From Cladosporium sp. IMV 00045 (Eukaryota; Ascomycota; Dothideomycetes; Cladosporiales; Cladosporiaceae): a stretch of 17,561 nt of DNA. The notes below the pieces were generated by a model that searched no databases, was not told the origin of the DNA, and saw only the letters and a program-made list of their open reading frames with translations. Positions 1-14,618 of this stretch are shown in pieces. Both the position numbers and the translations under genes were made by a program. Every line of letters begins with the position of its first letter. Positions within the stretch are counted from its first letter, which is position 1. The stretch lies in NCBI GenBank assembly GCA_001931905.2, contig MSJI02000079.1, forward strand, positions 1-17,561, written 5' to 3'.

Positions 1-1230
1 GTCTCCAGGCAGACGTCTGTTTCTAGCTTTGCGTCTGAGCTTGACGAGCGCTTCAATATTCACCGTGGCCAATTCCCTTACCCCGACGATCTGCCTCCAA
101 CGACTGATCCTCGCATGATTCAAGCAATCACCCAGACCATGATCGGCGAGTATCTCTGGAAGTACACACGCAAGACTGGCCGTAATGAGCAATCGAACAC
201 CAGGCACAAGCGCTTCTTCTGGGTTCACCCCTATACCCGCACGTTGTATTGGAGCGAGCATGACCCTTCAGCCGGCAGCAAGAACATGATGAAGGCCAAG
301 TCCATGTCCATTGAAGGCGTTCGGGTGATTACAGACGACAACACAAACCCACCTGGTCTTCACCGCAAATCCATCATCGTCATCACCCCAGGCCGCGAAA
401 TTGTCTTCACAGCGCCAACAGGACAACGCCACGAGACATGGTTCAACGCACTCTCATATCTCCTCCTCCGCTCTGAGCAAGAGCGCAACGAGGCAGACGA
501 TACGATCAACGAAGAGGACATTGATGAGTTCAACCCCGGCCGTACCCCCGGCAGTGGCTTCACCAACACCTTCACGCGCTCCATCTCCCGCATGACAGGT
601 CGCTCACAAAGCGCCCGCCGCAGCATGAGCAGCTACAACTCCCACTCCCGCCCCTCATCACCCACCAAAGGAGCCAGGGAAGACCCCTCACAACAATCGA
701 CCCTCGCCCGCCCCGCCCTCAACTCCACCCCGACTCTCACACCCACAGCCCACGACAACTACTCCTCCGGCCGCAGCCGTTTCTCAACTTTCACCGGCAG
801 ATTCCGCAACTCGAGCCAGCGCGGCTCTTTCGGCACTGTCAACTCTGCCCGCCCGGGCGCCCAGAGCGCCATGAGCTACCGCACCGGCGGCACGGCCGAG
901 GGCATGGAGGGGAGTGGGATTTACAACGCGTCTGTCATCAGCGACAGCGCGGAGGACTTGCGCGCGGTCATTGAGCGGCAGGAGGCGAATGCGGATCGAT
1001 TGGAGAATGTGAGGAGTTGTTGCGATGGTAAGTGACTATTGCAGATTTAAAAATCCGCCGACGCCTTGAAGGGACCGTAACTGACAACATTTCGCACAGG
1101 CAAACACGACGTCGGCTCGCTCAGTCGCAAGGGAGGCCGCCATGCTTCTATCAACCGTGCTCACTCCCACGGGCATCCTCGTAACGCGACGCCGATTAAA
1201 GAGAGCCAGAAGCCACGGAGGGGTGAATAA
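1..1230 (+). CDS. apsA: Num1/ApsA-type cortical anchor protein, C-terminal part (5' end outside window)
   Basis: The frame is open from base 1, so the start lies upstream. Two exons are visible: 1-1027 and 1100-1230 (stop TAA 1228-1230). They are separated by a 72-nt intron with donor GTAAGT, branch-like CTGAC and acceptor CACAG. The reading DPRMIQAITQTMIGEYLWKY followed by KRFFWVHPYTRTLYWSE is the start of the C-terminal PH domain of the Num1/ApsA/Mcp5 family, about residues 38-160 of the visible part. It is followed by a Ser/Arg/Pro-rich, probably disordered tail ending in RRGE. In the family this PH domain binds PI(4,5)P2 and holds the protein at the cell cortex, where it anchors dynein for nuclear positioning and, in yeast, mitochondria. 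The coiled-coil and repeat parts must lie upstream. The family assignment is strong; the symbol follows Aspergillus usage. Confidence 0.9.
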
Positions 1231-2369: not shown

Positions 2370-2382
2370 AAAAAGATCAAAA
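2370..2382 (-). terminator. RNA polymerase III terminator downstream of the 5S-like gene
   Basis: Read on the minus strand, the end of the 5S-like sequence runs into two runs of five T (complement of 2379-2383 and 2370-2374) separated by four bases. Oligo-T runs of four or more at this position are the usual Pol III stop signal. Confidence 0.55.
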
Positions 2383-2501
2383 ACATACAACAGGCGGGAT
2401 TCCCAGATGGTCACCCACTCTAGTACTAGTCGCCCGGTTCAGTGCTTATGTATGGCAGAGCGGACGAGATACCAGGATTTCAACCCTTCATCCCTAATTT
2501 C
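2383..2501 (-). rRNA. 5S rRNA-like sequence, probable pseudogene with a diverged 5' end
   Basis: On the minus strand the core reads CGTCCGCTCTGCCATACATA, then AAGC, a GGGCGAC block, CTAGTACT, GTGGGTGACCATCTGGGAAT and a final TGTTGTATGTT. These are the hallmarks of fungal 5S rRNA, including the internal box A/IE region (ATAAGC...CGGGC) and box C (GTGGGTGACC...GGGAAT). Length fits about 118 nt. The first ten or so bases should pair with the 3' end as helix I (ACATACGACC-like), but the sequence there is AAATTAGGG, so helix I cannot form. That points to a degenerate copy. Dispersed 5S genes and pseudogenes are normal in filamentous ascomycetes. The 5' boundary is estimated from length. Confidence 0.72.
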
Positions 2502-2769
2502 GATTCCAGGTCATGACTTTGATTACTGTCGTTGCGAGGATGCAGCGACCTATCCCGACGTGACGCGACCTTTCTCACAAGCATAAACATATTTATGAGC
2601 CCTCGGATTGCAAAAGATCCCGACTCAACTTTTCCAGTGCTCTGATCGTGTATTGGCACCATCAATTCGATATGAACACTTAACAGAGCCTACCATAGCA
2701 TCTTCATACACATTTGCCCGGCTAGAAGGCTTTTGGCTCAACAAGCTAACCCTAATCTAGGTTCTGTCA

Positions 2770-3070
2770 TCAAAGGACAAGCAGGACGAACCTGGAATGT
2801 GTTAGCATCCCTCACAGAAATGCGAATGACGCGCTTGAGCTTCAGACGTGTTACTCACGGTGTAGTGTGAACAGAGAGTTCCTGGAATGCTGAAATTAGG
2901 GAGTTGTCGGTGCGCGCTTCAATCGGGCACTCGCGCTGTGATTGGTTGATTTCATCGAGTTGTGGTCTGATTATGCGTCCGATTGCAAGCTGCCTCGAAG
3001 CGAGCTCTGCTCCTCGGCCATACTCCATCTTCTTAGGCAAATCAGCACTTTGTAGTATAATAGCATTCAT
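2770..3070 (-). CDS. Possible small spliced gene, 77 aa, unknown function
   Basis: A minus-strand ATG at 3070 opens a 70-codon exon (3070-2859). It ends at a clean fungal intron, 2858-2792, 67 nt, with donor GTGAGT, branch site TGCTAAC and acceptor CCAG. Splicing joins phase 2 and gives six more residues before TGA at 2772-2770. The predicted product starts MNAIILQSADLPKKMEYG. It is mostly hydrophilic with a hydrophobic last segment (FVLLVL), and has no signal peptide or motif that I recognise. The intron signals are the main support. It lies just outside the RIP-damaged tract and shows none of its base bias. It could also be a fragment of a longer lost gene. Confidence 0.35.
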
Positions 3071-3099
3071 TCTGTCCTATAGGATGACGCAATAGGCTC

Positions 3100-6000
3100 G
3101 AGACCGCCTTTAAGCTAGAGAAGCGGAGCTAGGTTACACCCTCGTTTAGCGTTTTGGCGTTTTGGCATTCAAGTTTCCATTATCCGCCGCATACTATTAA
3201 GCGACGTAACCACCTTCCGCAATTACCGAGGTTGAATAATGGCACATTTACGAGGATATTTTCTTAAAGAGTCTGCACTAAAGCCCGTAATAAATGACAT
3301 ACCTACAATAGATATGATAAGGGCATAACCGCGGACCAATAATCTACTACTTTTAAAGCAGAAACGATCACAAGTAAAAGTCGCTTATACCGCATATCGA
3401 CGTAGCAAAAGCAAGGTTAAGCTCACCAGGACAAGCGCCTAATAATTCGAGGTAATCACTAACTCCCGGATAGTACGACGGTCGAACGCTATTATATAGT
3501 CGGTACGCTTCGAGGGGCGCCGCGTGCGATTACGAGACTAAACCGAATGTCCCTCGTTCGATCTCATTACGTCGATAGTATAATACCCTTTAGGAGGAAG
3601 TAAACCTGCTTAGAGTGCTTAATAAATCTATGCGCGAGTGCTCTAAAGCTAAAGCTATAAACCTCTTACGATAGCTACGCGCGGGAACTAAACCTTTAGA
3701 AGTGCTAAGGTTATTCGTAGACGGAAGAGATATCGCCGGCACTCTAGATAGTATTCTAGCGACTATTAGTACGTTTATTAACGATAAGGCCTTAGATCTA
3801 GACTAAAGTAGCATAGCAAACGAAAGTTAAAGTAACGGAACAATAGCGCATAATAACCTCCTAGTAGACGCTACGTAGTAGTGTCGCACTTTAACTGTCG
3901 CGTATAAGATATTAATGTAGCCTGTCGTATACGCTTACCTTAAGGAGTCTAGCATCTTATCTTCTTCGGATATCTAGTCTATCTTGAAAGAGGGTACGGC
4001 TTAGTTCCTTAAAGGTAATCTATAGAGAAACCTAGACCTATTACCGGCTAATATCGGTCTTTATAAGCCTTTACCTAATTATGCAGCTAGAGAAGGTACT
4101 TACTTAGCCGACACCTAATTTAATGCTCTTACGATAGATGAAATTTACGAAGTTTCTAACGCGTACTTCAATACGTTTAATACTTTACACCCTCTACTCG
4201 ATCGAGCTATATTTAATAACGAGATCGTTAAAAGGCTACTACGATATAGTTATTAGGATAGGGATTCCGATTATATACTTACACTTTTGGTTTTTGCTCT
4301 CGGTTAAGTCGCTATCGAAGGTATTTTTGGCCTATTAATTAATATGGTTAATAATAAGCTAAGCGGCTTTCACGGCGGTTTATCTAGTTATCCACCCGGA
4401 CTTAGTCTATTTAACGAGGCTCGAAGATATCTCGGATTTATATCTATATAATATAGTTTGCGAAACGTATAAATTATGCTTCTTTAGGCTACGTATTACT
4501 AGTTAACTATGCGGCACTTAGATTATTAGCGCTTAACGACTATAGTATCGTCGGCTTGCTAGGTCTTAATCGAATACTAATCCATCGACTAGAACTCTAT
4601 ATATAGTGACTTAGTTAAGCGTGCATACTAGGCCTATATTCTCGTAGAAGGATTCTTCTATATTGAACTCGATTTACTATAGACTTAGATCTATATACTA
4701 GAGAATCTTATACCGCTACTATATAGTTAGGGCTTCGGAGACCCTCTATATAAGCCGACTCTATAACTTCCATCCCTTAGTACAACTATAATAGATAGTG
4801 ATCGCTAGGAGTATTACTTTCTTACGATAATAACCCTTTAACGTATTATAGCTAGAGCGCACGACGAGATCTACATTCACGAGCTTAACTCTAACCCTAC
4901 CGAACCCTTATTTCCTAGAATAGTAGAAGCTACTCGGGACCCGTCTACGCTACCCGACGCTAAAGCTATAGCGTCGTCCTCCTACTTTAGGCTACCTATA
5001 GCCCTAGTCCATAAGTTAGAGAGATAGCTTAGCTACTAGCGCACTATACTACCTATATTTCTGTAATAGGACGATAATAGCTTCTATTATCTGCCATCGA
5101 TATTTATACTAAAAGACGGGCGTATACTACCTATTTTCGGGATTCACGAGGATACCCTAACGTCCGAGTATACGCATAATTATAATATTGCGACCGTATA
5201 CTTACGGACCCGCTTCTATTACGCTTAGTTCATGATCTTCCGTCCGTTCGTTTATAAGGCCTTATATCTTCCAGATTTAATAATAGCCGAAGACTATCGA
5301 TACTACGTACGCGCGATTAAGTCGGTATGCGAATAGCCGCTTCTTCTTTTACTACCTAAGGACAAGAAACGTCTAGTACCATATATATAGGCTTAGCTAT
5401 AGCATTTTATAGGTATACTATTAATACTCGACCTATATTCTAAGAATTACTACTTACGGCGGGTTATCGAGTAGGGATAGGTAGAGTAGTAGGACATTAA
5501 TATAATAGTGTAGTTAATGCTAGAATGGATTCATAATGCTATATAGATAGACGGAATTACGTAACGTAGCTAGCTAATCGTTAAGTTACTTTTTAGGGTG
5601 GATCCGGCTTTAAGCTAGCTAAATACAGGAATCTAAAGACTTCTCAAATAGAAGCAACAAATAATATCGCTAACGGGCTAAGTACTAGCCTTAGAAACAT
5701 TCCTGCCTACGACCTTACGTAGTATAGTAGAAAGATTCGAGGTTTAATCTTCTATATAGACGTTAGATTTCACTATAGCTTCGAGATAGCGTCTAAATTC
5801 AGTTATATTACCGAGTCAAGCTTTTATATCTAAGTTACCAATTCTATCTATCCTGTTTCTACTAATCTAAGTCTATATCGATAATATAACTAGAAATATC
5901 ACTATAGATACGAACTCTAATAAGTTAATAGCCTAGCTAACGTCTACCCCTATATCCTAGGACACCCTAAAAGACGGGTCACTTTATCCGAGATTCGCTA

Positions 6001-6480
6001 TATATCTATCGTCTACGTCCTTCTTATATTGTGACCTATCCCTTACTTTTCTTCGGTCGTTTACCTACTAAGCTAACTATATGCGAGACCCTTACTCGCG
6101 TAGATCGTCGCTCCCTTAATCGAATCATCGCTATCGCTCGTTAACGCCTTAACTTCGAGCGCCGCGCGCGTAGGACGTGTTATTCAAATAAAGGCGAAAG
6201 TGAGTCTAGTAGATGCGCCTCGGCGAAGGGAATAATAAGTAGCCGTCTATAGGGGCCGTTAGTAGAGAATGCGGATCACAAATAAGCACTAAACTAGTAA
6301 CTTAAGGCTTCCTACTATATCTAGGAGATAGATAAGAAAACCGCGCGCGGTGATTTACGCCGAGCGCTCACGCACGCATATAGTAACGTTAAAACTTAGA
6401 TGTAACGATGTGGGGCGTGTAAGTGATTAATATTACTATCTTACGAATATCCCTATACTAGGGAGTTACGTAGTGCTATG
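3100..6480. repeat. RIP-damaged, TpA-rich tract
   Basis: From about 3100 the composition changes abruptly. CTA, TAG, TTA and TATA become very frequent, CAA/CAG are almost absent, and CpG-containing words (TCG, ACG, GCG) stay common. Loss of CpA with gain of TpA and retention of CpG is the signature of repeat-induced point mutation. No frame on either strand stays open for more than 66 codons, yet the tract contains an old gene whose frame is intact (see 3314-5636). RIP acts on duplicated DNA, so this segment probably had at least one further copy. The edges are judged by eye; the right edge blends into the transposase remnant, which also shows CAG-to-TAG changes. Confidence 0.85.
3314..5636 (+). 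pseudogene. RIP-inactivated Zn2Cys6 transcription factor (TF1), full-length fossil
   Basis: Exon 1 is 3314-3415 (ATG at 3314) and exon 2 is 3474-5636, with a 58-nt intron (donor GTTAAG, CTAAC, acceptor GATAG), for about 754 codons. One frame runs through exon 2 without an indel. The zinc cluster is readable as AYTAYRRSKSK then YDGRTLLYSRYASRGAACDY. Cys1-Cys5 are now Tyr (codons at 3386, 3395, 3474, 3495, 3504) and only Cys6 (3525) remains. An LKR-type linker follows (SLRR, LLR-stop-LRAGTKPLEVLRLF), then the fungal-specific regulator domain (NTLHPLLDRAIF near 4180, KRAY near 4620, EYYFL near 4810) and a C-terminal block YYA-stop-FMIFRPFVYKAL near 5215. Hand count gives about 48 internal stops, all TAG or TAA, as expected from CAA/CAG and TGG under CpA-to-TpA change. 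The ancestor would be a nuclear DNA-binding regulator; its targets are unknown. The end at 5636 is uncertain. Confidence 0.85.
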
Positions 6481-6489
6481 TTAGAGGCC
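5637..6489. other. RIP-damaged DNA without an identifiable gene
   Basis: This stretch has the same base bias as the tract to its left. In-frame CAA CAA occurs at about 5652, so CpA loss is a little less complete than inside TF1. Some frames give protein-like runs (for example around 5960-6120, plus strand) but with stops in every frame and no motif that I can name. It may hold a lost 3' exon, a lost neighbour gene, or the far end of the pogo element. Confidence 0.4.
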
Positions 6490-7200
6490 TTAAGAAGCCC
6501 CTGAAGTGAAATATCCGTCTATCCTACCCTATTTAAGACCTCCTAAATGTCTTCTTTGAACTACCTTCTTATACCTCTCTAACCACCTATTATACTCAGT
6601 ATTACAATTATCTGCCTATATCTCATTAAGTTGAGATCCTATAATTAGCGAAGGCAATAGCTTAGTAAGACTGTAGGTAGCTATTTAACTGCTTCATCGT
6701 CTAACTCCTAATTATTAGGAGGGCTAAATAGATTAATCAAATGATGATTAAGGTCCTTAGCGCTATCCTCAACCTGTTTATTAGGTAGATTAAGAATCTC
6801 ATTAAGGTCCATTATCGTGCGGATCCGTTGCTACTGTTCGAGATTGCTAAGGTTGGTTATAGCTCCTTTATAGCCTCATCTATGAAAGTTGGTTTTGCTG
6901 GATTTGGTTCAATATTCACACTTGAGTGAGACTAGTAGCTGGTGAAAGTAGTAACTGCTACTTCATCCTATGCACGAATACACCATTAAACTGCCTTCAG
7001 GATATTCACTATGGATAGGGCATTAAGGCCAAGCTCGTGTTGTTCAATCATGTAGCTGGTCTATTGCTTGCGATAGCGCACTTTAAATGCTGCTATTATC
7101 CCTTGATCCAGTGGTTGTAGTTTGGCTATTGTGTTAGGTGGTAGGAAGCAGATCTCAGTATTCATAAGGCCTGGCCCCTCTGGCATGAAGGTATGACATA
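6490..7200 (-). mobile_element. pogo/Fot1-type DDE transposase, C-terminal remnant
   Basis: The minus-strand frame from about 7200 reads MNTEICFLPPNTIAKLQPLD then QGIIAAFKVRYRKQ. This is the conserved block of pogo/Tigger/Fot1 transposases (DDE_1 superfamily) that lies between the second and third catalytic acidic residues. It continues with WCIRA-stop-DEVAV and, after one frameshift near 6870, with RIRTIMDLNEILNLPNKQVE and DLNHHLINLFSPPNN. A second frame change leads to NTEYNRWLERYKKVVQRRHL and a C-terminal stop-GRIDGYF motif, with stop TAA at 6492-6490. The N-terminal CENP-B-like helix-turn-helix and the first catalytic Asp are missing. Internal TAG/TAA codons stand where Gln or Trp is expected. 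No terminal inverted repeats or TA target duplications could be paired. The copy is dead and truncated on the side facing TF3. Confidence 0.82.
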
Positions 7201-7276
7201 ATCATGCCTGTCACGGCCTGCACCAAGTCTAGGGCGATCGCAGCATTGCTAGAGTATCCTCCGGGGGGCACAGCGG

Positions 7277-7739
7277 TTAAGAACCATTTGCGACATTTTC
7301 GCTGCGAAAAGTTGTGAAAGGGTCTTCAGCGGGTGCACCGGGAGCAGGCAAGGCACGCGCAAATTCCAAGGTAGAATCCACATCGTTGTCCTTCCGGAGG
7401 AACTCAATAATTCTATGGGCGTTGATTTGGGAGACAGATTTCATATGGCTTAGCAGTTGATTGACTTCGGTGGTCTGTCGCTGGAGCGCATGGTGCTTTC
7501 GTTTGAGGGCGATGATTGGAGGAGCTTCAGGTTCTGCAGTGTAGTCATAGCTACAATCACGATCAGCACATCTTGTGCATGTCGGTCGGCGCCCATCACA
7601 CTGTGGCCGTCAGTTTGAAAGTGATTCGTATCAGCTCTGGAGGGGACATTACCTTGACTTTGGCTTTGCGACATTTTTCGCATGCGACTGTGACTTGATG
7701 GCGTTTGCCGTCTTGTGGCCGCCGTCCGCCACCCGGCAT
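7277..7739 (-). CDS. Short Zn2Cys6 DNA-binding-domain protein (TF3), probably a truncated regulator
   Basis: The ATG is at 7739. Exon 1, 7739-7653, encodes 29 residues ending VACEKCRKAKVK. An intron of 52 nt follows (7652-7601, donor GTAATG, acceptor CACAG). Exon 2, 7600-7277, begins CDGRRPTCTRCADRDCSYDY and ends at TAA 7279-7277, 136 aa in all. All six zinc cysteines are present, but Cys5-Cys6 are separated by four residues where the family usually has six to eight. After the cluster comes EAPPIIALKRKHHALQR and a helical, possibly dimerising linker. The middle-homology activation domain is absent. Just past the stop, recognisable pogo transposase sequence begins, so the rest was probably lost there. 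The frame is otherwise undamaged and codon use is ordinary, unlike TF1. It could be a dead stub or an expressed DNA-binding-only protein. Related to TF2, which is divergent from it. Confidence 0.68.
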
Positions 7740-8809
7740 GAAGGCCCTTGGCGCCATTCACGTTGCAGGTCGCAAGTGTCTGACAACACAGGAAACCGTG
7801 GTAATGCTTTGGATACAGTCGGACGTGGGGCAAGTGGTCGAAAAGATGTATATTGTAGGTAGCAAGCGTTCCGCGAGCAACACTTGGTCTGTCGGGGCCC
7901 TCTCCGATATCAGTGTGCTCAGCTGCAACCAGGTACCGAAAGCGCTCAGCATCGCCTCAAGCTACAATACACAGATCGCAAACGACACTGAAGCTGCCAG
8001 CGTTGAAGCAGTACCGCGAATGCCATGGGCCCCACGATTGAGATCTCCACTATGGTAGACACCGGCGACAATAACAACGAGAACGACATCGGCAGCAACA
8101 ATCGCGGTGCAGACGCGCGCGTATACCACCTCCGCCACTTCGCCGCAACAAAATCTCACTCCGACTTCTCAGAGCTTTCGGGAGCCAGTCTCGCTACAAT
8201 GCGCTTGTTACATATACCCTGAGGACGACTGCTTCCTCGTCTATTAACCAATGCTCTAGCTACCTGCATATATGGACCGAGCTATACCAATTCCAGTTTA
8301 CCAAACGCAGTGCCTTCCCTGCCACCAACCAGTCTATGCCCTCGCGGCAGCATTCAGTTTGGTCTGGTTTTCTCGACATCCCCCCAGCACCCTCTTTACC
8401 CCCAATCTCACAGGATTCACGCCGTAGAGAATACTTCGATTCTTCTGTTTGCGATACCGCATGTACTCCTCAGCTCTTTTGCTCAAGCTAGCCCTACATC
8501 TTCGGATCGAGTGCCATATGATCGCCTGACATAATCCGTGCGCGAAATAGAAACTTATGATAGCACGCGCAAAAGCATGGTGAGTCCTGAGTGTAGACTG
8601 TAGACCCATTGGAACGTCTCTGCGTAAGAGCTGTGCGAATTGCCGCTCTACCTTCCCCTGCTATTCTGCTGCTAACCTGAGTGCCAGCGGACGTCAGTTG
8701 CCGCAGAAGATGGCGAGAGCGGCGGCCATCGAGAATCGCCCCACAGGGGGAAGGCCGACGGAGCACAGCGCAGGAGCGACGACCTCAGCTAGTCTCGCCC
8801 ATAGTGGTC

Positions 8810-8831
8810 TGAATCTGAATATTCAGATTCA
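8810..8831. promoter_or_regulatory. Perfect 22-bp palindrome upstream of TF2
   Basis: Positions 8811-8820 read GAATCTGAAT and 8821-8830 are its exact reverse complement. The flanking T at 8810 and A at 8831 also pair, giving 22 bp with no spacer. It ends 162 bp before the TF2 start codon. A perfect palindrome of this length in a promoter position suits binding by a dimeric regulator, but no known consensus is recognised. Confidence 0.45.
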
Positions 8832-8851
8832 AAAGCCGCAGCTCGTGACCA

Positions 8852-8867
8852 TCGGAGCAAGCTCCGA
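8852..8867. promoter_or_regulatory. CGG-N8-CCG inverted repeat, candidate Zn2Cys6 binding site
   Basis: TCGGAGC, then AA, then GCTCCGA: a perfect 7-bp inverted repeat with a 2-bp centre, so that CGG and CCG triplets lie eight bases apart. Zn2Cys6 dimers commonly bind inverted CGG/CCG triplets at a fixed spacing. The site is 127 bp before the TF2 start, which would fit autoregulation or regulation by TF3. Binding is inferred. Confidence 0.45.
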
Positions 8868-8993
8868 AATTTGTTGTGTCATAATGTGACTATGTAACCG
8901 CGCACAGTACTGGATTGTCATCTTCTCAGCACTCGCTGTTTCGAAAGGAAACATATCACAAACCGTGATCAAGATCGAGAGTCGCCAAACATA

Positions 8994-11695
8994 ATGCCTA
9001 ATCATGGAGTCACGGCGGGGCCATCTCGAGGGCATTCAAGCTCTTCCAGACTAGCTAAAAGAGCTCAGGTCGCCGTGGCGTGCGAGAATTGTCGTCGTGA
9101 GTAATGCATTAACTTCACTTCGCGCACTTCGCTGACCTTACGTATATGAACAGGTAGCAAAGTCAAAGTACGTATGCCTTTCGGCTTAGAAAACAACTTC
9201 AGATGAAGTGTCATGTTGACGTCGCGACCGAAATCTTGTCATCAACTGATCGCTATAAGTCGCGTACTTCTAACACTCGTGGGAATATTGTGACGGAGCG
9301 CGTCCAAGTTGCTCGAGATATCGGCAAATCGAGATTGAGTGCACCTACATAGTGCCTTAGAGCGATGCGCCTCCCATTATTGCACTCAAACGCAGTACGC
9401 CATCGAAGTCAAGACTAAATCCGACCGAAAACTGACCTTAGTTTCTCCTATTCTTTAGAGTACTCCGAGCTTTAGCGACAGTCTGCAGACGGACAAGCTT
9501 TATTGCATCAGCTCAGGTCTCTACCCTAACGCGATGCGCACGAAGTACTTAACCGTCTTCGAACAGGTTAAGATCCGGCTTCGGCGCTACAACTCGCACT
9601 CGGATCGCTAGCACCGATAACGCGGGCCGAAAGACTCTCACCTGCGTACCGCGACCATTACCTGGTAGACGGGGGCATCATAGCTTTGCCTCATATTAGG
9701 GATGCTAGTGCCTCTTCTACTTTACGATCGAATGTCAGTAGGGAACGGATCACTCCGAATACGCGGTTGCCAAGGCCTAACGCAGGTGCCTCTCAATAAC
9801 TACCTTCTTTCGCACATCTGACGTATGCTTTGTAGAGCACCTAAGCGACACTTTTTTCGTCGTTTGGCGAAATTCAATAATTGCTGACTCGCTTATAAGC
9901 GCATACATAGGGGACTCCAACTATATAGCACCTCAATCGTCACGCAAATCCCTGCTGAGAAAGTCACCCAGCGCGCCGGAATTCCACCACACGAGAGGCT
10001 TGACATCAGTATCTGTCTTACGGATACCTACTTGGCGAGCTGACTCAAGGCTTGACCGTGCCTACGCTAGAGACTGGGGTGTCTTTTACTTGGAGGATGA
10101 AGCATTCCGGAATATCATATGCTCCTATCTGATATGGGATCACCAAGCTTGGCGTTTCTTCGACGAGGATGACTTCTTGGAAGGGTTGGTGTATGCGCCA
10201 TCAATCTCTTGCAGTCCAGCACTCGTCCATGCGGTCATAGCATTTGGATCGGTTCGTACCAATACATACGTTTCGAGCGCAAAAACGGTTGACACCTTTG
10301 ATAGAGAAACTACGTTTGGATTGATGCCGAGACAGCCGATGCTTCAGGAACAGCTGCCGCTACAGAGGCGGAAAGACTATGGGATATAGAAAATCCAAGC
10401 GACAAACCCCTTGCTACAGCTGCAGCGGGTCTTCTCATTTGGAACAATAACGGGGCTTCGGGACACGACAATACCGGCGAGCCGTATATCCTACGAGTCA
10501 AGCGAGTTGCTGATCACATGAATATGTATGATGGAAGCTCATACGCTACAAAAGACACCAAAGCCAATCGGGCAAAGGCTATCTTCATCTGGGGTGTTTA
10601 CTCTTGGCTTGCGTAAGTCGTTTATTCACACTTCATTCCATGCTAGACGAGAAGTCAACTGACTCGACCATCAAAGGTTTTGTGAGATCACACTTGGGTC
10701 AGAGTTTAGCCTCCCTAAGTTGCCACCCGATTTGACGCCGCTTTTCAATGAAAATTCTGCAGACAAGGAATGGATGCCTTGGCCGCGAAGCGACCCACGG
10801 ATTTTGGCCTTGATAGATGAAATATTCCTTGTGAGATCTTCAATTATGGCGATATTCCTGGATATCGGGGCACTCCAAAGGAATCACAAAGACTCTGGAT
10901 TGACTCAAGAGTACCTTGACGCGTCTCTTGCTCTTTGTCACCGTCTGCGATTGGTATGGAACTCGGCTGGCGTGGTTGCGTGCTCCCTGGATCAAATGAC
11001 TCCCCATCTGCTCCTTCTTCAGTAAGTCACGCAGGCCCACTCACGCATGGTAAGAAGATTGTTCTATTTACCAAACAAGCTAACGCTCCCGGTCCAGTTG
11101 TTGGTACCACTATGCCATTCTGCAGCTCTTCCGTCCTTTTGTGACAACATCTACACTCCCTTCTATTCATTCACTGCCGTTAGAAGCCGCAAAACTATCG
11201 ATTGAGCCTGCTCTATCGACTTCGAGATCTGCTGCGCATCAGCTACGGTCACTGTTGACTCTAGGTTCTACAATATTTGCTGGCCTCCAAGCTCCACTTA
11301 TTTTCTCTCAAGTTGCTGTAGCTGTGGCCCTGGAGACTTTACCATCCGCGTCTGCGCTCAGTACGATCTTTTCGCTAACTGCAGGAACTGTATTCATTAT
11401 TGCTCTTCGTATCCTCTATCGAATGGGCGGAGCGTTTGTCGCTCTCCGTTTTGCACTTCTTGGAATCAAGCAAACGGCGCTGAGACTTCATTTACACGTG
11501 CCTCCAGAGGCAGAAAACATCTTTGGAAAGGTGCAAGAGGAGATTTCTCGCAGGAAGACAACCCGCAGACCCCGAGCTAATTAGGTGGTGGACTTGAGCA
11601 GATCCGGGGCTGATGTCCAAGCGGCGAGGTTAGAGAGTTTAGTTGGTGCATTAAGCGATCTCGATCTCCATTTAGAACAGCAGGGGAGGCTTTAA
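8994..11695 (+). pseudogene. Zn2Cys6 transcription factor, NirA-like type (TF2), broken N-terminal half
   Basis: The ATG at 8994 gives MPNHGVTAGPSRGH... to AVACENCRR. An intron 9097-9153 (GTGAGT...ACAG) follows, then SKVK (9154-9167), a second intron with GTACGT donor at 9168, and CDGARPSCSRYRQIEIECTY at 9289-9348. The fifth zinc cysteine is Tyr (TAT 9319-9321), the second intron has no AG acceptor before 9289, and stops stand at 9358, 9473, 9527 and 9569 with frame changes in the linker. From 9781 one frame is intact through three well-formed introns (10252-10304, 10613-10676, 11022-11097). It reads WDHQAWRFFDEDDFLEGLVY and CSPALVHAVIAFGS, then YSWLAFCEITLGSEF, then YHYAILQLFRPF, all typical of the fungal regulator middle-homology region. 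No in-frame ATG occurs in 9781-10251. TAG at 11582-11584 is followed by 36 more open codons up to TAA 11693-11695, so it may be a late nonsense change. The ancestor was probably a nuclear regulator of a metabolic pathway; its target is unknown. Confidence 0.78.
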
Positions 11696-11793
11696 ACAAA
11701 CCCCATGCGCCAATTTATAGTGTCTAAGCAGTGCAACGCCAAGAGGTCAACCCCGGAAGGAAATGACTACATCTCGCTACCTATAGCCATTGG

Positions 11794-11818
11794 TTTGATT
11801 TGATTTGATTGGATTGGA
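11794..11818. repeat. Short pentanucleotide microsatellite
   Basis: TTTGATTTGATTTGATT is followed by GGATTGGA, that is about three TTTGA units running into two ATTGG units. It lies downstream of TF2 in sequence without a gene. Confidence 0.6.
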
Positions 11819-11919
11819 TATACCGTTTTCGCAGTGTAGCTCCCTTAAAAGGATCATGCTAGGCTGTCACTGTGTGCGGTATCAGGGAGGAAAGCCGTAG
11901 CGTAAGCCCGGGTGAAAGC

Positions 11920-12580
11920 TCAATCCTCTAGTAAGTGTGAGCGCACATGAAGCCGCGAAGCCCTGTTTGCACAGTCTGCAACCACGATTACGAACATCCT
12001 GCGGATATCTCTTTTCTGATGTCTAGAAAGTGGCTGAAGAACCAGCTGTTTCCCTTGGTCCTGCAGTGTCTCATTCGCGATCTGACAGTGTTCCCCCTCA
12101 GAGTCATGCATATACTGGTGAATACCTGGCGCTTTACTGTCTGCAAGCCGGCAAGCAATGGTTGTAACGAACATTCCGATATGACCGGAGTCCCCTAGAC
12201 CCTTAGAGAAGAAGTAATTCGCTGCAAGGCGCGCCCTTTAACAATAATGGCGCGCGACAGTGCGAGCGATCGCCGATTTCCCCGTACCAGGCCGGCCACC
12301 CAGCCAGATGATGCAGCTCTTGCTGTCACTATCCACCCACTCGTGGATTATCACAAGAACGTCGACCCATGTTCCAGGCAAGCGGTCAGAGTCATTTTGT
12401 CTGTGGCATGCATTGAATGTCGCATTAGAAGCAAAGGGAAGGCGCCTTAGGGGGCCCTCGAGTTATGGCGCACATCTCAGCTTGTTCCTCGCAGGTCTCA
12501 GGCTTCTACATACCATAATGATTTACGATATGCGCTCGAGCACTGTCCGTTACATTCATGCCTTGGTAGTAGTTGCCGCC
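11920..12580 (-). pseudogene. NACHT-type STAND NTPase (NLR-like) remnant
   Basis: On the minus strand a degraded segment near 12560-12517 (VTDSARAHIVNHYG) leads, after a frame change, to LPFASNATFNACHRQNDSDR and GTWVDVLVIIHEWVDSDSKS, the linker that precedes NACHT domains in fungal NLR proteins. Next comes IIWLGGRPGTGKSAIARTVA, whose Walker A motif GRPGTGKS (12297-12274) is intact. A TAA at 12240-12238 interrupts the frame, which then continues as RLAANYFFSKGLGDSGHIGM, FVTTIACRLADS and QGKQLVLQPLS, all in family order. The Walker B region (expected V-DALDEC-like) reads FVIVVADCANR, apparently missing the acidic residues. The frame ends at 11922-11920. The N-terminal effector domain and C-terminal repeats are absent. 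Such proteins act in heterokaryon incompatibility or immunity-like responses; this copy can hardly work. Confidence 0.8.
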
Positions 12581-14618
12581 AGCCGCTGGTGGTCAGCGCC
12601 TGGTTCATGCTGTCTACGTCTCTTCATTGCTATGACCGGCTGGAAGCGTAGACTTTGCCAGAATGCACCGCCAAATATGTCGGTTGCGCAAGGCACGATC
12701 TGCGTATCCGAGCGAGGGTTCAACATTGTATGCCAGTGTCTCGCTATGCTGCCGTTTGCTTACGTCTCGTTCGGCGCAACCAGAATATCAAGGGTCCGTA
12801 CAGTATGGAGATGTGCGAGTGTTCCGAGCGAATCTGTCAACAAAGCGATATCAATACTTGAAAGATAACCTGATCGATTTGAGTGAACATAGCAACGTCT
12901 ATCAGGTCACGTATACACTACGTTGTCCAGGCAGGAAGCTCGGAAGGGTGGCGTAAGACATGCTTCAGCTAGCAATAGTGAGGGGTTTGGCCTGGCGTGC
13001 AGAAACCACGTGGGTAAAGCGCAGATTCACCAAGCGAGCTACAGTACTGGAGACGTAGGTTACGTTGGGTACATACTGTGGCTCCTAAGTAGCCTAAGCT
13101 ACTTCATTAAGAGCGCGTCCTTACACTGACAGGCAACGTTCAGCAGCTGCGACTGATCTGCGGCTATCACGCTTGCAAGCTGCGTGTGCGCGGCAGGATA
13201 TGTACAGGCGGCACAACCCACACTCGGCAGCGGTAACTGGTCAAAGAAAGTGTAGCGGCAAATTCGCCGTCTTCCCCGCTGTTGCGGCTCCAGTGAGATC
13301 ACATGATCAGCGCGTCGCAGGCTCCATCTTGGTCCCTACTCCTAGGATCATGAATCCCGCATTCCATATCGATATGCAGGAGATAAGCGCGCGCGCTGGC
13401 TTCAAAATTGAAGCTCCTAGTAGTTGACCGAATAATCGTCTAGCCGGAATCACAGAGCAGTAATTAGCTAAAGAGGCAAGTCAGGAACCAGGAAGCGGGA
13501 ACTAGGAAACAGGAATGGGAGCTTGGAAGGGACAAGCTGGCCAGATGCTGTTGTCGTATTTCTCTCGCAAGATATTACTATGATTAGGAAGCTTTGCACT
13601 ACACATATGTTCGGGATCTTCAACCTGGAACCAAAAAAATTCTCAAAAAGTCTGATCGGAATGGTGTTAGGCTTTTTGCCGAGCGCAATCCACCAATCGA
13701 AATGCAATGTTTACAAAAATCTCTCGTAGTCTACCGCAAATCAGAAAACTAGTATCTGGCTTCCACATCCTGCCTTTGTTCAGTAGTATAATATCAATCT
13801 TGATTTGAGCTGAGCTTGGCAAGTGCAGTCCCAATTTACGACGTTTGCAATTCCCGAGCCTGACTAATCCTGACCTGAGGGAGTCGGCCAGAAGTCGGGT
13901 TCCTACAGCAAAGAGATAACAACACGCTGGGATCCTGTAACCGTGAACGACGGTGAGAATAGGGGATTTCGGACGGGATGCCCAGTTTTCACTGACCTAT
14001 GGTCGTATGTACCTAGAACTTGCGTTTGCACATCATAATCTTAAGCTGCTAGCAAAAGCAGCGACATGAGAGCCATGACCATTCCTGCACTTGAGGTGGA
14101 TTCAGGTATAATGGAACCACAGCTCAAACACCAATTCGAATGATAGATGGGTTACGACCATCTCGAGGATCGATTCAATGTAATCATTCCGTCTTGCTTT
14201 TGTTGATATGGCCCGCTGCGTTTCTAGCTTCCCTCTTTTCGTTAACGGCTTGCCCTTGAGTAGTACGAAATGAAATCGAGCAAACGGACATGAGTGCCAA
14301 AATCTTTCGAGCTCTCTAGTTTTTCATTAAGAACATACCTATATGTCAAAAGGAAGTGTTGTCTTTCAGTAAAGCGTACACGTACATTCTCTCCTCCATT
14401 GCTTCCACCTGTGGTAACAACGATCTTGATTTTAAAGGGACCTTGAGAAAGGAAAGTAGGGAAAAAGACATGATTGGAAAAAATCAACGCCATGGCTGTG
14501 CATATACATACAGTAAAGAAACTCAAGGAAAAGTAGTGAAAAAGAAAAAGTCAGAAACCACCTCGCCCCATCCTTTTCAGTCGCTTCCATCCTCCGCAGA
14601 AACGCTTACATCGCCACT
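12581..14618. other. Intergenic: no identifiable gene; right part is the 3' flank of mlp1
   Basis: Sequence of ordinary composition with only short overlapping frames on both strands. The left part may contain further unreadable pieces of the NLR gene. At 13480-13517 there is a purine-rich run of irregular AGGAA units. The last few hundred bases before 14618 should hold the 3' untranslated region of the nucleoporin gene, which is transcribed leftwards. A low-complexity AAAAAGAAAAAG run lies near 14540. Confidence 0.45.

Follow-up and report, generated by a model that had tools for sequence, protein, structure and literature searches.

A FacB-like Zn2Cys6 regulator gene bearing the marks of RIP in the leftmost part of an 11.5-kb insertion within a 5S rRNA gene

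The window, by which we mean the whole 17,561-nt stretch of DNA that was analyzed, is contig C79 of a Cladosporium genome assembled into 954 contigs (49.87 Mb). Positions 3236-5618 were confirmed to hold a two-exon gene for a Zn2Cys6 (FacB-like) regulator that is interrupted by 47 premature stops, and this ruined gene occupies the left end of an insertion by which a 5S rRNA gene is cut in two. The following features were delineated in the window.

2370..5637, plus strand: duplicated segment in common with contig C747 (86.4% identity to C747:23567-20288)
2382..2466, minus strand: left part of a 5S rRNA gene (antisense, positions 1-85, 100% identity)
2467..13969, no strand: inserted DNA (about 11.5 kb) dividing the 5S gene, with the direct repeat CGGACG at 2461-2466 and 13970-13975
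3236..3415, plus strand: exon 1 of the ruined Zn2Cys6 regulator, placed by the in-frame start of the open copy (C747:22689) and by alignment
3251..6750, no strand: RIP tract (13 RIP-positive 500-bp windows of 69)
3416..3473, plus strand: intron of 58 nt, GT-AG, present in the window and C747 copies
3474..5618, plus strand: exon 2 to its natural TAG, with 46 premature stops and no indels relative to C747
7277..7609, minus strand: third regulator, a fragment (34% identical to the C747 protein over 7370-7600, E 4.4e-10)
8896..11773, plus strand: second regulator region, Zn2Cys6-type by eye, 82% identical to C508:15405-12515, with little RIP
12238..12462, minus strand: fragment of STAND/NLR type with a P-loop (Pfam NPHP3_N, 32.9 bits, cut-off 24.8)
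13970..14010, minus strand: right part of the 5S rRNA gene (antisense, positions 80-120, 100% identity)

A DNA search of the genome revealed an open copy of the ruined gene in the minus-strand segment of C747 that matches window 2370-5637. There, C747:22689-20307 is an open frame of 774 amino acids: exon 1 runs from the ATG at 22689 to 22510, is followed by a 58-nt GT-AG intron, and exon 2 extends from 22451 to a natural TAG that ends at 20307. The encoded protein scores above the Pfam cut-offs for both PF00172 (Zn_clus, 40.2 bits, cut-off 21), with all six cysteines present, and PF04082 (Fungal_trans, 24.7 bits, cut-off 23). A database search with this protein returned 124 proteins at E<=0.001. 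The top match covers 86% of the query at 100% identity, the best named matches are hypothetical proteins of Meristemomyces and Hortaea, and among the matches listed (120 of 124) two bear names that relate them to FacB, the acetate regulator. The nearest homologue, P0004, is 75% identical. No match was found when exon 2 of the open copy was scanned against NCBIfam, a prokaryotic library. The genome yielded no third copy of the gene by DNA search, and in further long protein matches the identity does not exceed 52%.

Aligned with the open copy, the exon-2 stretch of the window (3474-5636) pairs over 2,163 bp with no indel, and the intron keeps its place and borders, just as the preliminary description of this DNA had proposed when it traced one indel-free frame of 2.16 kb behind a correctly placed 58-nt intron. 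The gene limits that it gave, 3314..5636, need revision. The codon at 3314 is ATG in the window and GTG in C747, an in-frame ATG-ATG lies at C747:22689, which places the window start near 3236, and the natural stop is the TAG at 5616-5618 in both copies; the ATG at 3314 is probably a by-product. Within the single frame of the exon-2 stretch we counted 12 TAA and 36 TAG codons, no TGA and no CAA or CAG, in agreement with the earlier tally of about 48 stops of these two kinds, and exon 1 (3314-3415) contributes one further stop, a TAA. As the remaining five frames of the stretch contain 57-75 stops each, the number of stops alone hardly marks the frame; homology does. The damage extends to the zinc cluster, in which five of the six zinc-binding cysteines are now Tyr and one is left; both cysteines encoded by exon 1, numbers 1 and 2, are among those lost. 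Searching with the stop-masked translation, a check suggested in the preliminary description, placed the window copy in the same family as the open copy by full-length homology (115 proteins at E<=0.001, the best named ones again from Meristemomyces and Hortaea) but recovered no Pfam domain.

The differences between the two copies run mostly in one direction. Over exon 2, 329 of 2,163 aligned positions mismatch, and 282 of these are C:G to T:A in the window copy; with the window taken as derived, they comprise 146 T from C and 136 A from G, beside 21 reverse transitions and 26 transversions. With C747 as ancestor, 261 of 352 CpA/TpG sites in 3314-5636 (74%) are converted, compared with 40 of 835 cytosines in other contexts (about 5%; CpT 10/294, CpG 19/300, CpC 11/241; Fisher p ~2e-136), and under the opposite polarity, with the window as ancestor, the count at CA is 2/86. 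Homologues support C747 as the ancestral state. At amino-acid-altering codons with RIP-type changes only, the residue in P0004 is that of C747 at 133, that of the window at 14 and a different one at 38, and across 30 homologues the commoner residue is that of C747 at 148 and that of the window at 18, with 19 ties. Synonymous changes make up 93 of the 293 RIP-type changes, against a neutral expectation of 0.341. Three marks by which RIP is recognized are thus found together, namely C-to-T change on both strands (exon 2), CpA preference (3314-5636) and a duplicated target longer than a few hundred base pairs (3.27 kb in common with C747). The comparison of the copies thereby bears out the earlier proposal of a complete Zn2Cys6 gene changed from CpA to TpA on both strands.

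Most of the stops can be traced to their former codons. The exons as drawn in the preliminary description contain 49 stops, and once the natural stop and a single stop downstream of it are set aside, 47 premature ones remain. Premature stops fall on Gln or Trp codons of C747 in 43 of 47 cases (CAG to TAG 18, TGG to TAG 13, CAA to TAA 10, CAA to TAG 2); the claim that such codons account for every stop therefore holds for these 43 and not for all 47. The other four stand on CTC, CGG, CTG and CGA, once each. At the CGG and CTG positions P0004, alone among the 30 homologues, has Gln, and C747 may be the changed copy there. The CGA position is Arg in 29 of 30 homologues and the CTC position is a gap in 26 of 30, so that what is left is an Arg codon that could have become a stop in two C:G-to-T:A steps, together with an exon-1 codon that lacks an explanation. 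The absence of TGA is expected if TpG is itself a RIP target.

RIP indices, which the preliminary description had proposed to compute in sliding windows, confine the damage to one tract. All windows that pass the RIPper thresholds (stated in PMC9453070 for 1-kb windows and applied here to 500-bp windows) lie between 3251 and 6750, where TpA/ApT is 1.45-1.94 and (CpA+TpG)/(ApC+GpT) is 0.25-0.62; on either side the former is lower and the latter higher. Toward the right, the tract passes the end of C747 similarity at 5637 and enters a dispersed repeat (5938-6302). Toward the left it fades: CpA conversion is 2/21, 0/22, 3/25 and 0/23 in the first four 150-bp bins (2370-2969), then 6/23, 9/22, 15/27 and 11/19, and 61-88% from 3570 onward. 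The flank at 2370-3060 carries a C-to-T excess in the window copy (23 of 349 cytosines versus 4 of 328 in reverse) with no CpA preference (CT 7/83, CC 6/83, CA 8/105, CG 2/78). The open copy has normal indices (0.65 and 1.22), and a weakly RIP-positive window lies just past the common segment at C747:19501-20000 (1.59 and 0.73).

RIP is sparse in the other parts of the genome that we sampled. Including the weak window on C747, 7 of 397 windows in 25 other loci are RIP-positive, with strong patches at C811:23951-24700 (1.76 and 0.27) and C641:50455-51204. The patch on C811 is close to a FacB-like relative (C811:25451-27484, locus L046). Two other FacB-like relatives, on C290 and C499 (L049 and L050), are identical over 4,053 bp, and none of 15 windows in the C290 copy is RIP-positive, so either RIP misses some pairs or these contigs are redundant; the identity could reflect assembly redundancy, loss of heterozygosity or a very recent copy. 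Relatives of the dispersed repeat occur on C759, C641, C353, C918 and C662, and the loci around them (L011-L015) contain two RIP windows in 60, both on C641. A link between this repeat and the DUF3435 gene on C759 was considered and dropped although the two adjoin, the repeat on C641 being located beside an ORF with a Cys-rich end stretch that looks retroelement-like by eye.

Changes of other kinds bear on the age of the duplication. Setting RIP-type changes aside, the coding parts differ at 52 of 2,244 sites (748 codons, about 2.3%), by 24 reverse transitions and 28 transversions. The synonymous shares of these (10/24 with a neutral expectation of 0.343 and 6/28 with one of 0.182) are near the neutral values and indicate no strong constraint. 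Where altering codons have non-RIP changes only, P0004 agrees with the window at nine, with C747 at seven and with neither at nine, and where RIP and non-RIP changes are mixed the corresponding numbers are one, four and five, so that both lineages have changed since parting. With roughly 50 substitutions few indels would be expected anyway, and hence the absent indels do not date RIP. The earlier suggestion of a recent or single burst, drawn from the lack of indels, is not supported, the copies also differing by the 52 non-RIP changes. Five indels beside 25 non-RIP substitutions in the flank 2370-3313, versus none beside 53 in the exons at 3314-5636 (Fisher p 0.005), hint that the frame was under selection part of the time; the contrast is weak, with one of the five at the alignment edge and another, of 11 bp, within short tandem sequence around 3144, and dating by indels was given up. 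The gene itself was apparently intact when RIP hit it, as had been supposed: coding indels are lacking, the intron borders are kept and the stops fall, with four exceptions, on Gln and Trp codons.

The ruined gene is located just inside a broken 5S rRNA gene. When the flanks are joined in silico, a 5S gene is restored that matches the intact gene of locus L022 without a difference along 131 bp, and the joined flanks align across the site with C334 (77%, 419 bp) and C715 (74%, 341 bp). From the split halves and their restoration on joining we conclude that about 11.5 kb entered the gene by an insertion flanked by a short direct repeat. At all four loci tested in this genome, the intact 5S genes were recognized as RF00001 across the whole model; the window gave no match in an Rfam scan at the gathering threshold, presumably because its 5S gene is split. 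The C747 copy starts at the same 5S left junction as the window insertion. The right end of the C747 insertion was not found, and an intact 5S gene is situated at C747:18911-19030. On the regulator's side of the C747 junction, past the intact 5S gene, lie an NB-ARC gene (L027:8743-9891) and a protein-kinase-like gene (L025:2458-3978). Beyond the junction, and thus outside the element, is a single-exon gene (C747:25943-28354) whose best named match, from Cladosporium halotolerans, is 79% identical over the full length; the best unnamed match reaches 80%.

The right junction recurs elsewhere in the genome. A search with the 20-mer of the right junction (at most two mismatches) returned 27 places including the window, 12 of them exact, and none with the reversed pattern. 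The 5S end was confirmed by sequence at the right junctions of the window, C662, C745, C811, C709, C932, C184 (twice) and C863, and also on C3. Two further insertions are complete, one of about 2.0 kb on C863 and one of about 3.2 kb on C184, each with a 10-bp direct repeat. Contig C55 also carries both junctions.

We next consider what the insertion carries. Besides the ruined gene, its 11.5 kb hold two further regulator genes or pieces, three in all, and one NLR-type piece. The second regulator region shows ordinary divergence from its C508 relative, with 13 gap runs and a weak CpA bias (65/390 against 28/364 in reverse), and that relative also adjoins a truncated 5S piece. The third is a fragment in which Pfam Zn_clus stays below its cut-off (14.2 against 21 bits). 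Regulator matches at E<=1e-40 occur on 13 contigs. On the 12 that remain when that of the window is excluded there are five right junctions (two on C662, two on C184, one on C811) where 0.28 would be expected by length, which gives a Poisson p of about 1e-5; counted by contig, the figures are 3/12 versus 22/953 (p 0.002). Places that share a contig are not independent of one another, and a right junction is lacking on nine of the 12. The association suggests, short of proof, that the FacB-like regulator travels with the element.

The reading that we regard as very probable is that a FacB-like regulator gene occupies the left end of a 5S-inserting element at two places, the window and C747, and that the window copy was converted by RIP while a near-identical duplicate existed. 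Acting on both strands between about 3.0 and 6.7 kb, RIP would have changed some three quarters of the CpA/TpG sites into TpA, and in doing so would have made stops of Gln and Trp codons and Tyr of the Cys codons for zinc ligands. The change was presumably made before meiosis by the RIP machinery; PF00145 matches are present on six contigs, with C443 and C941 forming a pair at 90.9% DNA identity, and none was assigned to RID. The window copy would then be dead and the C747 copy working, and the 5S insertions would be mobile. Textbook RIP mutates both members of a duplicate pair. The C747 copy could have stayed unmutated through meiotic segregation (an unmutated resident copy coming from the other parent), through arrival after RIP, or because the partner was a third copy that has been lost.

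Arrival after RIP, by transposition or by transfer from another strain, deserves separate attention as a substantial possibility that still falls short of an even chance. It would account for normal RIP indices in a copy that starts at the same 5S left junction, and the 52 non-RIP coding changes between the copies fit it as well; RIP needed a partner at the time, however, and no third copy is found in the genome by DNA search. Improbable, in our view, is a hybrid genome in which the copies represent a single locus, as alleles or homeologues, and no transposed duplicate. Three gene pairs (L055/L056, L005/L006 and L002/L003) are indeed 88-91% identical over kilobases, which suggests that the genome may be hybrid or otherwise doubled, but these pairs differ by 9-12%, several times the non-RIP difference between the regulator copies. 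Moreover, similarity to C747 begins about a dozen bases beyond the left 5S piece and stops at 5637, and no second copy of a gene in the window's flanks came up in the DNA search of the genome: 14450-17561 matches itself alone, while 1-2330 matches itself, an identical 848-bp contig end on C846 and about 100 bp on C715. The match to C846 (window 1-848 against C846 1-848, minus strand) is probably an assembly overlap, and a gene with an Mcp5_PH domain is found there.

Still less credible is an origin of the stops by AT-biased decay or by deamination of methylated cytosine without RIP. The usual kind of such deamination targets CpG, and in 3314-5636 CpG is converted at 6% against 74% at CpA; across the 748 codons there are 28 transversions against 293 directional transitions, and it is the weak, context-free C-to-T excess of the left flank (2370-3060) that agrees with such decay. 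Finally, continued use of the window copy through stop readthrough or a different code can practically be dismissed, for the indel-free frame that would speak for it is contradicted by 47 premature stops of two kinds, by the replacement of zinc cysteines with Tyr, by a masked protein without a Pfam match and by a neutral synonymous share among RIP-type changes.

Returning to RIP of a duplicated, element-borne gene, we consider the locus ordinary in kind and unusually well documented, owing to its open sister copy; its greater interest lies in the 5S setting. The literature already documents RIP, Starships inserted in 5S genes, and Starships that have undergone RIP. With an open and a mutated copy in one genome, the locus offers a clean natural measurement of RIP outside the usual models: conversion amounts to 74% at CpA and about 5% at the remaining cytosines, the edge is mapped, and the origin of nearly all stops is accounted for. 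A regulator within a 5S-breaking element would, in addition, connect at a single locus the cargo of mobile elements, the growth of gene families and genome defence. One may go further and propose that an unnamed family of 5S-targeting elements carries a FacB-like regulator as its regular left-end passenger, that the regulators multiplied with it and that RIP silenced a near-identical copy. This extension is tentative and, to our minds, rather doubtful; if true, RIP limits the rate at which a mobile regulator family spreads.

Compared with known systems, the window copy resembles RIP of ascomycete duplicates in its C-to-T change on both strands, strong CpA preference, indices over published thresholds and duplicated segment. 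It departs from RIP in ascomycetes in that one of two copies is mutated and about 600 bp at the segment edge are nearly spared. With respect to FacB-like Zn2Cys6 factors of Dothideomycetes (PF00172 and PF04082), the C747 copy conforms, having both domains over cut-off, whereas the window copy lacks five of the six zinc ligands.

Judged from its sequence, the insertion resembles a 5S-targeting Starship in the way it would work, yet we do not file it as one because the DUF3435 captain (PF11917), the tyrosine recombinase that forms the first gene of a Starship, has no match on C79. The genome has four DUF3435 matches, one on C3 and three on C759. The captain-like frame on C3 (L037, C3:25236-26624) has five internal stops (two TGA, one TAG, two TAA); it points inward and is situated some 2.3 kb within a 5S right junction. 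Starships that target 5S rDNA, such as Osiris navis of the Enterprise family in Aspergillus fumigatus, are described in PMC12153272, where direct repeats longer than 6 bp are linked with the 5S target. The insertion in the window is, like these, site-specific with direct repeats at 5S: it splits a 5S gene, with repeats of 6 bp here and of 10 bp at C863 and C184, and its interior, holding regulators and an NLR-type fragment, can be likened to theirs. The 11.5-kb, ~2.0-kb and ~3.2-kb insertions are all smaller than the Starships with which they were compared from the table of PMC12153272, and the direct repeat in the window differs from the Voyager target sequence as given in PMC10128009. RIP-affected Starships have been reported in Gaeumannomyces (PMC12134995), and the signature of RIP within a large mobile element is common to both cases. 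What sets the present locus apart from the Gaeumannomyces Starships is a single regulator gene for which the genome also has an unmutated copy, so that the two can be set against each other at every base.
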